Shown in pieces: positions 28,548 to 60,840 of a DNA stretch of 64,000 nt (position 1 is the stretch's first letter; each line of letters starts with the position of its first letter). The notes below the pieces were generated by a model. The model saw nothing but the letters and a program-made list of their open reading frames with translations, was not told the DNA's origin and did not search any database. The stretch comes from a virus. The position numbers were made by a program, and so were the translations under genes. The stretch spans positions 62,001 to 126,000 of IMG/VR virus record IMGVR_UViG_3300033145_000476; one strand, written 5' to 3'.

Positions 28548-30262
28548 TGGTAAATGAAGTTGAAGTCCCCAATATGAATGGCAATGGGGTAGAGGGTTAC
28601 GCTGGTATTGAACGTGAGATAATCGAACTTATCCTGCAAAGAAAGTTCTTTTATGGGCATTTCCTACAGCAGTTTAAGCGGCATAATGTTGACCATAAGC
28701 ACGCTGACCCTTCTGCGGGCAAGGTAGTTCATACTCTTGCGGTAAACATTACCAGCGACCTTAAACCTAATTTGTTTGTCAACACAAGCTTTTATAATTC
28801 TGGCGATTACGACCCTGACAATCCAAATAAGCATACGTGGGGGTTGACGCAGGACGAGAAGCTTGCCTTGCTTGAACACGAAATTCTCCATATGCTGAAT
28901 AAACACTTAATCCGAATCGAGAATCGAGACAGTTATGTCTGGAATGTGGCTACCGATTTAGCGATAAATCAGTATATTAAAGGATTACCCGATGGTGCTA
29001 GATGTCCAGATTGTAACATATTCGTAAGGAAGATTGCTGGTGGGCAGTTTCCACATACTTGTCCCTTGTGCAAGAGACAACTTGACCCAAATAAGCACAA
29101 ATGTCAGCCTCTTCAAATTAAAGGGTTTGATGTTGGTGCTGAAAAAATGAGTCTTGACGCAAACAATCCATCTGAGAGTTACTACGATATACTTTGGAAA
29201 AAGCTGCCAAAGCAGGTTATTCTTTGTGGTCGTGGTATGACCGACCAGCGAGAAAAAGAGGCTAGGGATGGGTTGAAGGATAGTGGTGGTATGGGGCAAG
29301 GTCAAGGTGAAAGTGAGGGTCAATCTTCTGGCAGTTCTGGTGGTTCTGGTGGACAACAGCAACAGCAAGCTGGTGGTGGCAGTGGTCAGCAACCACAAGA
29401 TAATGATGGTCAGGGTAAAGACGAGAAAAAACAAGAAGCTAAAGAGGAAGAGGGCAAATCAGGTGATAGTCGGAGAGATCTTGGCAGCGGTATAATTGAA
29501 ATTGATGGGATGAAAGTCCCAATAGCCATAGACAACCACGAAGCTTGGCAGGCAGGAGCGGACAATAAAGAGATGGCTCACCAAAAGGTCAAGGATATGG
29601 TTGAAAAAGCTATGCACCGAGTTAATCAGAAATCTCAAGGGCATCTTCCTGATTATGTGAGAGGGCTGATTGATGCGGTTCTTGCTCATAAGACTGTAAA
29701 CTGGAAATCTGAATTGAGGAAATTCGTAGGCTACGAGGAGTTTGCTCAGTTTATTTCAAGCAGAAAACGAATTAACAGACGCTTCCCCATCGTGCAGCCA
29801 GGTTACGTAGTGCAGAGAAAGGCACATTTTGTGGTAGCAGTTGATAGTTCGGGGTCTATTGATGATGAGGAATTTGCGAAATTCTTCAAAGAGATAAGTA
29901 TTATGCACGCAGCCAAACTTGCGTTGACTTATGTGGAGTGCGATGCGGATATTCAAAAGGTTGAGGAGTATAAAAGAAAGCCTAAGCTTGCACAACACGA
30001 AAGGATTGGTTACGGCGGGACTGACTTTAGACCAGTGTTCGAGTTTGTCAAGAAGCGTTACTGGAAAAATGGTGCTGGTAAAGAGTTCAAGCTGAAAGGC
30101 AATAAGAAAGTAGATGGTATTATTTACTTAACTGATGGGATGGGTAGTTATCCTTCACCGAGAGATATAATCTGCCCTGTAATTTGGGTAATGACACCTA
30201 ATCACTCTGATTACGGGTGGAGTGAGAAAATCGGCAAGAAAATAGTGATGGAAGATGACTAA
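28547..30262 (+). CDS. VWA-like protein with HExxH metallopeptidase domain
   Basis: A 571-residue protein resembling the DUF2201 family (putative metallopeptidase plus VWA-like domain). LLEHEILHMLNKH (about 104-116) is the HExxH zinc motif. A zinc ribbon (CPDC...CPLC...C) follows. A Gly/Gln/Ser-rich linker spans about 245-300. The C-terminal VWA has the metal-binding VDSSGSIDDE and a later GGTDF. The start overlaps the ATPase stop, so the pair forms a MoxR/VWA machine. Its target is unknown. Confidence 0.88.
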   Translation: MVNEVEVPNMNGNGVEGYAGIEREIIELILQRKFFYGHFLQQFKRHNVDHKHADPSAGKVVHTLAVNITSDLKPNLFVNTSFYNSGDYDPDNPNKHTWGLTQDEKLALLEHEILHMLNKHLIRIENRDSYVWNVATDLAINQYIKGLPDGARCPDCNIFVRKIAGGQFPHTCPLCKRQLDPNKHKCQPLQIKGFDVGAEKMSLDANNPSESYYDILWKKLPKQVILCGRGMTDQREKEARDGLKDSGGMGQGQGESEGQSSGSSGGSGGQQQQQAGGGSGQQPQDNDGQGKDEKKQEAKEEEGKSGDSRRDLGSGIIEIDGMKVPIAIDNHEAWQAGADNKEMAHQKVKDMVEKAMHRVNQKSQGHLPDYVRGLIDAVLAHKTVNWKSELRKFVGYEEFAQFISSRKRINRRFPIVQPGYVVQRKAHFVVAVDSSGSIDDEEFAKFFKEISIMHAAKLALTYVECDADIQKVEEYKRKPKLAQHERIGYGGTDFRPVFEFVKKRYWKNGAGKEFKLKGNKKVDGIIYLTDGMGSYPSPRDIICPVIWVMTPNHSDYGWSEKIGKKIVMEDD

Positions 30263-30731
30263 ACGAGAAGCCCTAATCGCTGAAGCAAACCAAGCTGAAG
30301 AAGAAGCTCTTGCCATTCGTCACGAAATGTCTGCTCTTCTTGGAAAAGGTTATACGCCCAAATACAAAGAACTTCAAGAGGCATATAATATTCTGCGGAG
30401 AAAAGCATTATGCTTAAAATCCCAAGCTCAGGCAGTGCTTCCAGTGCAGATTGAAGGATTTCTTGGCGAAGAAGTTGAGGAAGTTGACCACGATGAACAC
30501 GGTAGGACAATGGAGATTGGGTGGTGGCTAGGTTGTCCTAATGTCAACCGAGAAACTTATTTCTCACCAAAGCTACAATATTCTTTTGAGAACGATATAT
30601 CTGAAATACTCAAGCTCAATGCTGGAAAGTATTTGAGAGTTACCATAGAGGCAATTGATGTTGGGAGCAGGGGTAAGTGCGAAACCTGTCCTGATAGGTT
30701 CAAATGCTATACAATGGAGTGGAAATTTTGA
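30255..30731 (+). CDS. Cys-tag protein
   Basis: A 158-residue protein. A coiled-coil N-terminus (residues 1-60), a middle domain with CPNVNRETYFSPKLQY, and a C-terminal Cys tag CETCPDRFKCYTM at residues 142-154. It begins the dense series of tagged genes. Confidence 0.8.
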   Translation: MTKREALIAEANQAEEEALAIRHEMSALLGKGYTPKYKELQEAYNILRRKALCLKSQAQAVLPVQIEGFLGEEVEEVDHDEHGRTMEIGWWLGCPNVNRETYFSPKLQYSFENDISEILKLNAGKYLRVTIEAIDVGSRGKCETCPDRFKCYTMEWKF

Positions 30732-35646: not shown

Positions 35647-35925
35647 ATGAAGAAACTTCTGTTCTCCCATAATGGGGTAGAATATTACTTAAACGGGCAT
35701 TCTAATCATCGGATGAAAGTTCGTAGGATTGCACCCGAAGATATTCGTGGTGTATTTGAGAATCCAATTCGAGAGGAGAATAGAGGATACGGCACGCTTA
35801 TTGAAGGGTTTAATGAACAAGGTCAAATGATAAGAGTATTCTATCGGCAAAAACCAAAAGGATACCGTGAGATATTAACAACTGTAAGATGTGGGTGGGG
35901 AAATAAAAATAGTGCTTTGGTTTAG
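35647..35925 (+). CDS. DUF4258-like protein
   Basis: A 92-residue protein. NHRMKVRRIAPEDIRGVFEN, an aromatic strand region and IRVFYRQK...YREILTTVR match the DUF4258 fold, related to RelE/BrnT-type toxins. No antitoxin partner is obvious. Start ATG 35647. Confidence 0.65.
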   Translation: MKKLLFSHNGVEYYLNGHSNHRMKVRRIAPEDIRGVFENPIREENRGYGTLIEGFNEQGQMIRVFYRQKPKGYREILTTVRCGWGNKNSALV

Positions 35926-35965
35926 CCATCAGACTCCTTTCATCCCCCGCCCACTGTTGGGGGTT

Positions 35966-36358
35966 ATGGGCAAGAAAAAAGAAATTAAGTTGTGTGATGA
36001 TTACTCACACGACTGGTATAAGGTAGGTAAGTGCAAGGATGCTCTCGGTAAGCACCCCTGTAAATACTATCCAGAGGGCTGCAATACTTGTATGACTAGA
36101 TTTGAGTGTTATACCAAAGATAATCCTGACCTCTATCGTAGCAGAATTTCAGGCATTTTCTATGCGTGTAAAAAATGTCCAGCAGTTAAAATAGAGGGAA
36201 CTATCACATCGTGGGAAACCGAGAAGATACACTCAAAATCCGAGAAAAGCAATATGGACTTACCCTTTGGCTTACTTGACATACGCAAAAGCACATTTTT
36301 TGGGTTAGAAAAAGATATAGCTGATAAATTAAGAAAGAAGTGGGGCAATGAAGTATAA
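35966..36358 (+). CDS. Cys-tag protein behind a hairpin
   Basis: A 130-residue protein (MGKKKEIKLCDDYSHDWYKV). Cys at 10, 23 and 32 precede the tag CNTCMTRFECYTK at residues 39-51. Further CKKCP at about 66. A CCCCC/GGGGG hairpin (loop 10 nt) lies immediately before the ATG and includes the only purine-rich ribosome-site candidate. Confidence 0.72.
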   Translation: MGKKKEIKLCDDYSHDWYKVGKCKDALGKHPCKYYPEGCNTCMTRFECYTKDNPDLYRSRISGIFYACKKCPAVKIEGTITSWETEKIHSKSEKSNMDLPFGLLDIRKSTFFGLEKDIADKLRKKWGNEV

Positions 36359-43619: not shown

Positions 43620-44195
43620 GTGACCACAAAGGGAAGTCTAACAAGTATAGCTGTTTCAGACGGTGAGAAATACCCTTATGAAGTTACAAAACGGCAAGTA
43701 ATGTGGACAGACGGTTACGATGCTTGGCTGTGTGTATTTAATGGTATTGGAGATAGCCCACGAAACTCCTACCACAAACCTACATCGTATAGGTTCACCT
43801 ATTATTATCCCAACCGCAATATATTAGGCAAATATAACACACAAAAAGTAATAACTCTGAGCAAAGGACACACGCTATCAGACTATCAGCGAGTAAAAGA
43901 GCGAACTATGGAGCTACACAAAGCACAAGCTGGTCAATTGATTGCTGGCGGTTTTAAGCTTACTTGGCTGGACTTGGAGGAATCAAAAGAGTGTTTGGAG
44001 TATTATATGGAACATTCTAAAGAACCGATAGACCTAGACGAAAAAACTAATGACGAATTGCTGGCACTTTGCAGAGCAGAAGCCAGAAAGAACGGCTTTA
44101 AGGATTGTGAAAGTGGCTGCAAATTAAAGTTTCTTTGTTGGACTCACCGCAGCCAACGAGAAGAACTTGACAAGAAGTATCGAACTGTGGTATAA
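43620..44195 (+). CDS. Cys-tag protein (variant spacing)
   Basis: A 191-residue protein; GTG start uncertain because the purine-rich site is about 14 nt away. Strand-rich N-terminal half with many Tyr, helical C-terminal half. The tag is CESGCKLKFLCWTHR (Cys at 163, 167, 173), with C-x3-C instead of C-x2-C. Confidence 0.72.
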   Translation: MTTKGSLTSIAVSDGEKYPYEVTKRQVMWTDGYDAWLCVFNGIGDSPRNSYHKPTSYRFTYYYPNRNILGKYNTQKVITLSKGHTLSDYQRVKERTMELHKAQAGQLIAGGFKLTWLDLEESKECLEYYMEHSKEPIDLDEKTNDELLALCRAEARKNGFKDCESGCKLKFLCWTHRSQREELDKKYRTVV

Positions 44196-52719: not shown

Positions 52720-53193
52720 ATGAGGCAAGCTTATCCTCCACCAAAGAAAGCTACGTTCTCAAAAGCGATGGCAATCTGGAAATCTGTGCCCGATTTCGGG
52801 TCTGACTTTGGACCTGAACCAGACATCTTCAGCACGACTGTGCCAGATAATAAAGAGCTTCAAAAGATAATGCAAGAGTTGATGAAGATGCAAAAATGGC
52901 AACCGAGTGGTGGTTATGCTAAGATTGAACCAGAGGAAGATAAGGAAGCGAAAGAGGCTGCAAAGTTAAAGAGGTTTATGACTATGTGTTTTAATCGCAC
53001 AACGGATTTTACCAAGTGTGATTATTGTGAATTCAGATTTAGATGTTTTACCGAAGTAACAAAAAGGAAGAAAGATGGAACTAATAACAATCAACAGCGA
53101 GAACGGGAAGATACTCCGAAAAAAATCTCACCAAGTGTCTTTAAACTCAGACCTAAAAACCCTGGCAGAAGAGTTATCAAGGGTTCTAAATGA
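52720..53193 (+). CDS. Cys-tag protein with overprinted tail
   Basis: A 157-residue protein. Helical body, then the tag CDYCEFRFRCFTE at residues 100-112. The last 39 residues (Lys/Asn/Pro-rich) overlap the deformylase gene by 119 nt in another frame. Confidence 0.72.
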   Translation: MRQAYPPPKKATFSKAMAIWKSVPDFGSDFGPEPDIFSTTVPDNKELQKIMQELMKMQKWQPSGGYAKIEPEEDKEAKEAAKLKRFMTMCFNRTTDFTKCDYCEFRFRCFTEVTKRKKDGTNNNQQREREDTPKKISPSVFKLRPKNPGRRVIKGSK

Positions 53194-56403: not shown

Positions 56404-56726
56404 AATGTGATGAGTGCGAATATAGATTTATTTGTTTTACGACCAAAGAAAGACCTATCAGGGTAAAAATAAATTGGCAACTAACCAACAGTTGTTCGAG
56501 GTGTCGGTACGCTGATTTTACTGCTTCTTATGGTGACCATACTAAAAGAGTGGTGACTGTATGTAAAAAGAAAAATTGGTTAGTTCACCAAAAATCTTCT
56601 TGCAGTGAATTTGAACCAAAAGACGTGAAAGAAATTGACAAGGTATATGCTGAACTGCGGGCTGAATTAAATAAAAAGAACCGTAGAAGTAAATTACCAA
56701 AGTATTGTGAGTTAGATGAAGATTGA
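56400..56726 (+). CDS. Cys-tag protein, tag at the N-terminus
   Basis: A 108-residue protein starting MKCDECEYRFICFTTK, so the tag is at residues 3-15. It is followed by CSRCRYADF...CKKKNWLVHQKSSC, a second Cys/His cluster, and a helical end with KLPKYCELDED. It is paralogous to the next gene. Confidence 0.78.
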   Translation: MKCDECEYRFICFTTKERPIRVKINWQLTNSCSRCRYADFTASYGDHTKRVVTVCKKKNWLVHQKSSCSEFEPKDVKEIDKVYAELRAELNKKNRRSKLPKYCELDED

Positions 56727-57189
56727 AAAGCTAACCTATAATAGTAACGTAATTGGGTATGATAAAGATGACGACTTTGAAGATGAAGAAGCTGATGACC
56801 AATATGAGCTAAGACAAAAGCTCTATAAGCTTGTAAAGAGATGTGAGAGATGTAAATTTCGTTTCAAGTGTTACACTCAGAATACGGCAGATAGACCTGA
56901 ACAGCTTAAAGGCATCAACTTTGAAGTTGCAAAGTGCTGTATAAGATGCACTCACGGACACTTTAGGAGAGGGAAAGACCAATACAGGAGAGTTGGTAAA
57001 TGTAGCATACACAAAGTTTCTGTTCACCAATTCTCTTACTGTGATAATTTCAATCCTAAACGAGTAGACAACCTAACATATGTTGTCTATGATGAGATAA
57101 AGAAAGAAATGGAATTTTTGACACCTAATTTTGGGTTACCAAGATATTGTATAGTTGATAAAAAGCATCTGGAGGTTAAATATGGCTAA
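56716..57189 (+). CDS. Cys-tag protein, paralogue of the preceding gene
   Basis: A 157-residue protein. An acidic N-terminus, the tag CERCKFRFKCYTQ at residues 43-55, then CCIRCTHGHF...CSIHKVSVHQFSYC and a helical end with GLPRYCIVDKK. Everything after the tag parallels the previous protein, so they are tandem duplicates with different N-termini. Confidence 0.78.
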   Translation: MKIEKLTYNSNVIGYDKDDDFEDEEADDQYELRQKLYKLVKRCERCKFRFKCYTQNTADRPEQLKGINFEVAKCCIRCTHGHFRRGKDQYRRVGKCSIHKVSVHQFSYCDNFNPKRVDNLTYVVYDEIKKEMEFLTPNFGLPRYCIVDKKHLEVKYG

Positions 57190-59880: not shown

Positions 59881-60749
59881 ACTATAAGTAGACCCATAAG
59901 CCGAATTCTGTTTTATGTGAACATTTATCTTGATTTAATGTTACCACTAAATTCTTCGCCACCTACCCGAAGCTATAGAGTGAGCACTCAGCTTCTGCTT
60001 GGTGTTGCACCAGATGGAGTTTACCTCTCCTACTTATACTCCCTATTCCTACCTGAAAATGTAGGTGTTTGACTGTGACAATTGGGACACAAGAATTCTA
60101 AATTTTCTGGTCTATTATCATTACTAATACCATTCTTGTGGTTTAATTGTAAGGAAATCTTTTTACCTTGCCACTCACCAACATTACCGCAGACTTGACA
60201 TTTATATTCTATTATCTGCCTTCTAATAACACGTCTTTTTAATGTTGCACCACATACTCTTGAGTTCTCACAAAAAACTTCCTTATCTGGTACAGGTGGT
60301 TTACGACTAACCTGATAATGTCTGCCCAAATTATTGTTGTATCCCAATGGAATATGTGAGATGTCCAAGTTATCTGCCTTGATACGCTTCTTGAGAATTT
60401 CATACCCCGAAGCCACATTTGGAACATCTATCTCTTTTAGTGTACCAATTAAAGTATCGTGTTTATAGAGCATATTCTGCAAGTCTTCTTTAGGTATTGT
60501 CCATATTTTTGACCTTTTCCTTTGTTTATACATTCTAGCCTCGTGGTAGAGATAAGTAGGAGTTTAGCACTTGTCGTCAGATTTCTCTGCTAGGGTGTTA
60601 CCCTACATCCTGCTCGATGGTGTTCGGACTTTCCTCTCTCTTTCTAACCTACCTTGATTTTCTGACCGATCCTAATCCCTGCAAGATTCCCAGGTCATAT
60701 TTGCAGCCTCGGTTTAGAAAGTTGAGCGTTCACTCGGTCTACTTATAGT
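59881..60749 (-). ncRNA. rnpB: RNase P RNA with an HNH gene inside helix P12
   Basis: The 5' and 3' ends form P1 (ACTATAAGTAGACC pairing with GGTCTACTTATAGT, 14 bp). Signature regions are present: AGAGGAAAGTCCGAAC, then CGACAAGTGCTAAAC, and AGGTAAACTCCATCTGGTGC, then GATAAATG and AACAGAATTCGGCTTAT near the 3' end. Removing 60038-60551 leaves about 355 nt, the usual size of a type A RNase P RNA, which matures tRNA 5' ends. The two arms of P12 (60552-60562 and 60027-60037) pair perfectly over 11 bp on either side of a complete HNH gene. The 5' end lies 3 nt from the end of the tRNA-Ser. Confidence 0.93.
60030..60533 (-). CDS. HNH homing endonuclease inside the RNase P RNA
   Basis: A 167-residue protein. 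SLQLNHKNGISNDNRPENLE, then FLCPNCHSQTPTFSGRN is the canonical HNH core of phage homing endonucleases; CENSRVCGAT and CQVCGN give a zinc knuckle. GAGG lies 6 nt before the ATG. The codons for Glu-Tyr-Lys-stop form part of the 3' strand of RNase P helix P12. There is no room for a group I intron core, so it is a gene inside an RNA loop rather than in an intron. Confidence 0.9.
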   Translation of the reverse strand: MYKQRKRSKIWTIPKEDLQNMLYKHDTLIGTLKEIDVPNVASGYEILKKRIKADNLDISHIPLGYNNNLGRHYQVSRKPPVPDKEVFCENSRVCGATLKRRVIRRQIIEYKCQVCGNVGEWQGKKISLQLNHKNGISNDNRPENLEFLCPNCHSQTPTFSGRNREYK

Positions 60750-60752
60750 ATA

Positions 60753-60840
60753 TGGCGGAGGGTGTGAGATTCGAACTCACGGTGGTTTGACCCACTTCAG
60801 TTTTCAAGACTGCTCCTTTAATCCACTCAGGCAACCCTCC
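60753..60840 (-). tRNA. tRNA-Ser (UGA)
   Basis: An 88-nt cloverleaf with long variable arm typical of tRNA-Ser. Anticodon TGA in the loop CTTGAAA. The 3' CCA is encoded. It ends 3 nt before the RNase P RNA, so the two are probably co-transcribed. Confidence 0.93.

Follow-up and report, generated by a model that had tools for sequence, protein, structure and literature searches.

An HNH endonuclease gene in the place of helix P12 and the T-loop-recognition module of a phage RNase P RNA

RNase P is a tRNA-trimming RNA enzyme whose RNA belongs to a family that is essential in cells and is among the oldest ribozymes; in bacterial RNase P, conserved regions CRII (ACAGA..) and CRIII (GUGAAA) form the contact with the T-loop of the tRNA. 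Homing endonucleases often ride in introns, and 23S rRNA works after excision of an IVS. The closest described systems are the ORF-bearing rRNA IVSs, such as that of the Coxiella burnetii 23S rRNA, which carries an S23p ORF (PMC4990558), along with the insertion sequences of CPR rRNA genes (PMC11270868); the homing endonucleases of phage tRNA clusters, for which SegB of T4 serves as the comparison (as cited in PMC6582537); and reduced RNase P RNAs, specifically the minimal RNA of Pyrobaculum, which lacks most of the specificity domain (reviewed in PMC4919922), and the P12-less RNAs of CPR bacteria (PMC8172020). The open-access literature yielded neither a phage RNase P RNA nor an HNH or other protein gene within an RNase P RNA.

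The locus described here lies in a 64,000-nt window (bases 62001-126000) of the IMG/VR record IMGVR_UViG_3300033145_000476; the window is the whole stretch of DNA that was analysed, and all coordinates refer to it. Genes for terminase, portal, tape-measure, and baseplate proteins and for a DNA polymerase mark the full viral record (138,618 bases, 138.6 kb) as that of a tailed phage. It also contains 26 tRNA genes in one cluster and two outside the cluster, a tmRNA, and a CCA-adding enzyme; no RNase P protein gene was found in the record. The RNase P RNA is located inside the 26-tRNA cluster and starts three bases past the CCA end of a tRNA-Ser. The host must own an RNase P, which makes the phage copy dispensable; it is an accessory copy and not the essential one. 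The first-pass annotation had called it an essential-type RNA, which holds for the family in cells; its account of an HNH gene that splits an RNase P RNA, with a P12-like closing helix and no intron core, is supported by the findings described below. Elsewhere in the window (30-58 kb), a small Cys-rich motif, C..C..[RK]F.C[YFW]T, recurs in many different ORFs, for example at 30255-30731, 35891-36358, 43620-44195, 52720-53193, and 56716-57189.

Two related phages supplied empty sites. In L053 (IMG/VR 3300017963_000316), the RNase P RNA is uninterrupted and sits in the same neighbourhood, sharing the CCA-adding enzyme (64%), a small ORF (70%), a cupin (60%), and tRNA-Ser(TGA); two tRNA-Thr genes of this phage flank a smaller HNH gene from the same family. 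The second empty site is in L064 (IMG/VR 3300027917_001949). Both relatives carry long non-coding expansions of P12, indicating that this region tolerates growth. The features of the interrupted locus, all on the minus strand and ordered from its 5′ side, are as follows.

60753..60840, minus: tRNA-Ser(TGA), whose end lies 3 nt ahead of the RNase P RNA
59881..60749, minus: RNase P RNA gene with insert, 5′ end at 60749 (RF00010 matches of both halves; alignment with L053/L064)
60736..60749, minus: P1 5′ strand ACTATAAGTAGACC (14/14 complementary to 59881-59894; compensatory changes across relatives)
60639..60723, minus: expanded P3, ~85 nt (comparison with L053/L064 and fold prediction)
60625..60638, minus: conserved region I, CRI, GAGAGGAAAGTCCG (RF00010 match; alignment with relatives)
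60567..60570, minus: P11 5′ strand GTGC (pairs with the 60025-60019 region; co-varies in L053, GAGC/GGCAATC)
60552..60562, minus: 5′ arm of the P12-like helix closing the insert, CTCCTACTTAT (arm pairing, shuffles, fold)
60539..60542, minus: ribosome-binding site GAGG of the HNH gene (sequence; five bases before the ATG)
60030..60533, minus: HNH endonuclease gene, 167 aa, with N-terminal helical domain, linker, and HNH domain (PF01844, PHROG 10822, AlphaFold)
60027..60037, minus: 3′ arm of the closing helix, ATAAGTAGGAG (pairing with the 5′ arm; holds the last sense codons and the stop)
60019..60025, minus: P11 3′ strand GGTAAAC (alignment with relatives)
59881..60025, minus: 3′ half, comprising the P11 3′ strand, P7/P5 3′ strands, P15, P16, P18, P2, CRV, P4, and P1 (RF00010)
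59897..59911, minus: conserved region V, CRV, ACAGAATTCGGCTTA, including the P4 3′ strand (RF00010 match; comparison with relatives)
59881..59894, minus: P1 3′ strand GGTCTACTTATAGT (complementary to the P1 5′ strand)

The interrupted RNA is 869 nt long, insert included. Scanned alone against Rfam RF00010, the 5′ half scored 44.8 bits (E 4.7e-13) and the 3′ half, which is 86% identical to L053, scored 80.8 bits (E 2.4e-25); with the insert retained, the whole RNA fell below the RF00010 gathering threshold because the insert breaks the match. P1 pairs perfectly over 14 bp, as had been claimed, and is longer than in the relatives. P3, at ~85 nt (60639-60723), is likewise larger than in L053 and L064, where it has a 4-nt loop. 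The core of a type A catalytic domain (CRI, CRV, P1-P5, P15, P16, P18) is complete. The claim that all type A signature regions are present is wrong on one point: CRII and CRIII are absent at the P11/P12 junction, where no match to CRII with fewer than three mismatches and no match to the CRIII core was obtained. The relatives carry ACAGAGACGAG (CRII) before P12 and GTGAAAC (CRIII) after it, and both regions are present in L047, L048, L053, L055, and L064.

Without CRII and CRIII, P11 runs almost directly into the helix that closes the insert, and this helix took the place of P12 and the T-loop-recognition module. The insert therefore does not quite sit in a tolerated loop, as first proposed: it replaced a module that the closest relatives keep. 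By its catalytic domain (P1-P5, P7-P11, P15, P16, P18, CRI, CRV), the RNA resembles bacterial type A RNase P RNAs (RF00010), in which P12 and P3 expansions also occur, but it lacks CRII/CRIII and P13/P14 and has a protein gene in P12's place; it is a derived type A RNA that departs from the class in CRII/CRIII. As in the minimal RNase P RNAs of Pyrobaculum and CPR bacteria, the T-loop-recognition part is lost and the catalytic domain kept, although this RNA retains P7-P11 and has an ORF and a new helix in place of the tip. Rfam's own alignment used a hairpin inside the ORF (CCTACATTTTCAGGTAGG and AATAGGGAGT) as P12 and CRIII; this candidate was rejected because it adds only 2.2 bits to the 3′ half (80.8 versus 78.6), and because its codons encode a conserved protein motif, PTFSGRN.

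The arms of the closing helix (60562-60552 and 60037-60027) pair perfectly over 11 bp, and CTC at 60551-60549 pairs with GAG to lengthen the helix past one bulged U to 14-15 bp. An 11-bp pairing was reached in 1 of 5000 shuffles, and the next-best flanking pairing among the 89 ORFs of the window was 8, so the 11-bp arms reported around the HNH gene are confirmed as exceeding chance. The last sense codons and the stop codon (TAG, 60032-60030) fall within the 3′ arm, also as reported. Fold computation on the full 869-nt RNA predicted the pairing of P1 and of the closing helix to be near certain. An 8-9 bp block (ATAAGTAG/CTACTTAT) is common to P1 and the closing helix (9/20000 shuffles).

The record is a metagenomic contig, so an assembly artefact that fused an HNH gene with the two parts of rnpB was considered; it is extremely improbable, since the halves have the same close relatives (L053 and L064), pair throughout and form a single 14-bp P1, the arms on either side of the ORF are exactly complementary, and the HNH gene and rnpB are each single-copy in the genome. 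An unrecognised intron that is removed with ligation of the halves was also weighed, given how common homing endonucleases are in introns and given an imperfect 13-nt direct repeat around the insert (60016-60028 and 60559-60571; 8 exact, TAAACTCC, minus strand). The repeat could have arisen by chance or been left by the insertion event. The intron reading was rejected as very improbable on the Rfam scan of 60000-60600, which returned no group I, group II, or other intron family at E<=5 and a single sub-threshold chance match, in agreement with the first-pass annotation; moreover, non-coding sequence makes up only some 20-30 nt of the insert, which leaves no room for a known core, and ligation at either the arms or the repeat would leave CRII and CRIII still missing.

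Like the ORF-bearing rRNA IVSs, the insert places a protein gene within the gene of a structural RNA, is closed into a stem by complementary arms at its ends, and has no intron core. It differs in that the host RNA is RNase P RNA, the ORF encodes an HNH nuclease rather than S23p, the location is a phage, the stem is shorter and contains a stop codon, and a conserved module has been replaced. By analogy, the insert would work like an ORF-bearing rRNA IVS, although the definition of that class, an rRNA host and an S23 ORF, excludes it.

The HNH ORF (60533-60030, 167 codons) is intact and has its own ribosome site, GAGG, bearing out the earlier description of a complete gene; it matched Pfam PF01844 at 26.7 bits, over the cut-off, and its best PHROG family was 10822 (E 3e-36). 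The HNH and catalytic/zinc residues are kept, and codon use lies within the window's normal range. In the AlphaFold prediction (mean pLDDT 85), a loose linker joins a helical N-terminal domain to the HNH domain. No sequence match was found among solved structures, and fold matches were weak, the best being an HNH restriction enzyme (E 0.095). The last residues, coded by the 3′ arm, were predicted to be unstructured; thus, the arm-forming codons sit where the protein seems least constrained. The protein lacks a C-terminal extension bearing a conserved VSD..KW motif found in about half of its relatives. A truncated protein was considered on this ground and partly rejected: many relatives are extended, yet the one in L016 stops at the same motif (RNRPYK*).

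A tRNA gene lay within ~3 kb of 41 of the 43 HNH relatives in viral contigs, as against 1 of 25 control stretches, the effective number of relatives being below 43 because some loci are near-duplicates; a tmRNA was also present at four of the loci. The HNH family thus belongs to phage tRNA clusters. The interrupting gene resembles the free-standing PHROG 10822 HNH homing endonuclease genes in protein family, tRNA/tmRNA neighbourhood, and HNH and zinc residues; those genes normally lie between tRNA genes, whereas this one sits inside an RNA gene. No other HNH relative interrupting an RNase P RNA was found among the HNH records scanned with RF00010, and the only one of these with any match (G023) had a weak one ~16 kb from its HNH genes.

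Across the shared 243-nt core, the interrupted RNA is 81-90% identical by block to L053 and L064, and the CCA-adding enzyme is only 64-65% identical to those of the relatives at the amino acid level. All modelled core pairs (68/68) are intact. Compensatory, both-sided changes occurred at 15 pairs among the three phages, a count reached in 0 of 500 shuffles, and two of the changes are private to the interrupted RNA (C-G to U-A in P8, A-U to G-C in P16). Private substitutions numbered 11 in this RNA, versus 18 and 21 in the two relatives. Nothing in these counts suggests decay, and the conservation speaks against long-term decay, although a function lost only recently would leave the core just as it is.

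These data bear on the view that a recent HNH insertion was a selfish disruption that destroyed the specificity domain, leaving the RNA dead or nearly dead and tolerated since the host supplies RNase P. The loss of CRII and CRIII, the dispensability of a phage copy beside the host enzyme, and the fact that the interrupted gene was seen once among the loci examined are all in keeping with it. We consider it rather unlikely, because the core pairs are intact, with private compensatory changes and fewer private substitutions than in either relative, because the closing helix is far better than for other ORFs of the window, and because other phage RNase P RNAs also lack the T-loop module.

Type-A-like RNase P RNAs lying inside or beside tRNA clusters were seen in many phage records (L241, L244, L247, L250, L257, L263, L264, L265, L268, L275, and L278 of IMG/VR; L047, L048, L055, and L088). 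Several are strongly reduced and lack CRII/CRIII, with both regions absent in L241/L257, L244, L247, L278, L263, and L268, so loss of the module is compatible with retention in phages. Together, the RNase P RNAs of phage tRNA clusters seem to be an undescribed group. Among GenBank phages, no rnpB match was obtained for the interrupted RNA or its relatives, only matches to HNH genes, and the three RNAs of the wider group that were tested had no close match there; none of the 112 bacterial rnpB genes examined contained an inner ORF of at least 100 aa. Most 15-mer CRV matches in IMG/VR lacked an RNase P RNA, are probably chance, and were set aside. Very divergent RNase P RNA-like sequences were seen in L090 (~1470-1740) and L089 (~1470-1830); P4, which is nearly invariant in nature, appears to be compensatorily changed in these sequences (GUCGGGA/UCCCGC in L090), and L090 seems to have no specificity domain.

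We consider it probable that this accessory RNase P RNA houses a tRNA-cluster HNH homing endonuclease gene in its specificity domain, as an intron-less IVS, and that its catalytic domain probably still functions. This explanation builds on what is established: how the locus is laid out, the uninterrupted sites in the relatives, the preserved base pairing, and the tRNA-cluster habit of the HNH family. An HNH gene of a family normally found between phage tRNA genes would have colonised the neighbouring rnpB, settling between the P11 strands at the outermost end of the specificity domain, where a helix of 11 bp (14-15 with the bulge) would replace P12 and the T-loop module; such partial loss would be tolerated because the phage copy is accessory. 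The catalytic domain would fold around the insert, held by P1 (14 bp), P2, P4, and P11, and would probably retain pre-tRNA trimming with host RnpA. The HNH protein would be made from the same transcript or from a precursor of it, and it probably cuts the empty rnpB or nearby tRNA-cluster DNA of co-infecting relatives, by which the element would spread, and the insertion would protect its own site from the protein.

The working form may be one 869-nt RNA or two RNA pieces once the insert is nicked. As a sub-case of the explanation we favour, RNase III or another host nuclease may cut the closing helix, leaving a two-piece ribozyme held by P1, P2, P4, and P11. The anatomy matches that of the ORF-bearing 23S rRNA IVS, with terminal complementary arms and an ORF in the loop (PMC4990558), and P1 is longer than in the relatives; the helix, at 11 bp (14-15 with the bulge), is nevertheless short compared with the 28-bp stem of the Coxiella IVS, and the nuclease is putative. 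We regard excision of this kind as less likely than not.

The first-pass suggestion that one RNA is both ribozyme and mRNA is compatible with everything seen at the sequence level. A ribosome on the stop codon would also sit on the 3′ arm, and translation should therefore compete with ribozyme folding within a single molecule. Alternative pairing between the P1 5′ strand and the 5′ arm of the closing helix was predicted in partial transcripts, and a switch can be imagined in which this pairing forms early and leaves the HNH start free, the terminating ribosome covers the 3′ arm, and, once ribosomes are gone, P1 and P12 close to give a ribozyme without T-loop recognition. We regard such a switch as quite improbable; if true, the locus would encode a naturally occurring bifunctional mRNA-ribozyme, its specificity domain capped by the nuclease gene.

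Under the favoured explanation of an IVS-like HNH gene in an accessory RNase P RNA, no intron is needed for a mobile nuclease gene to persist inside a catalytic RNA: the gene takes up the specificity domain and spares the catalytic one. The interrupted RNA would thus be a natural test of how much of the specificity domain is dispensable, and it draws attention to a wider group of tRNA-cluster phage RNase P RNAs, several of which lack the T-loop module.
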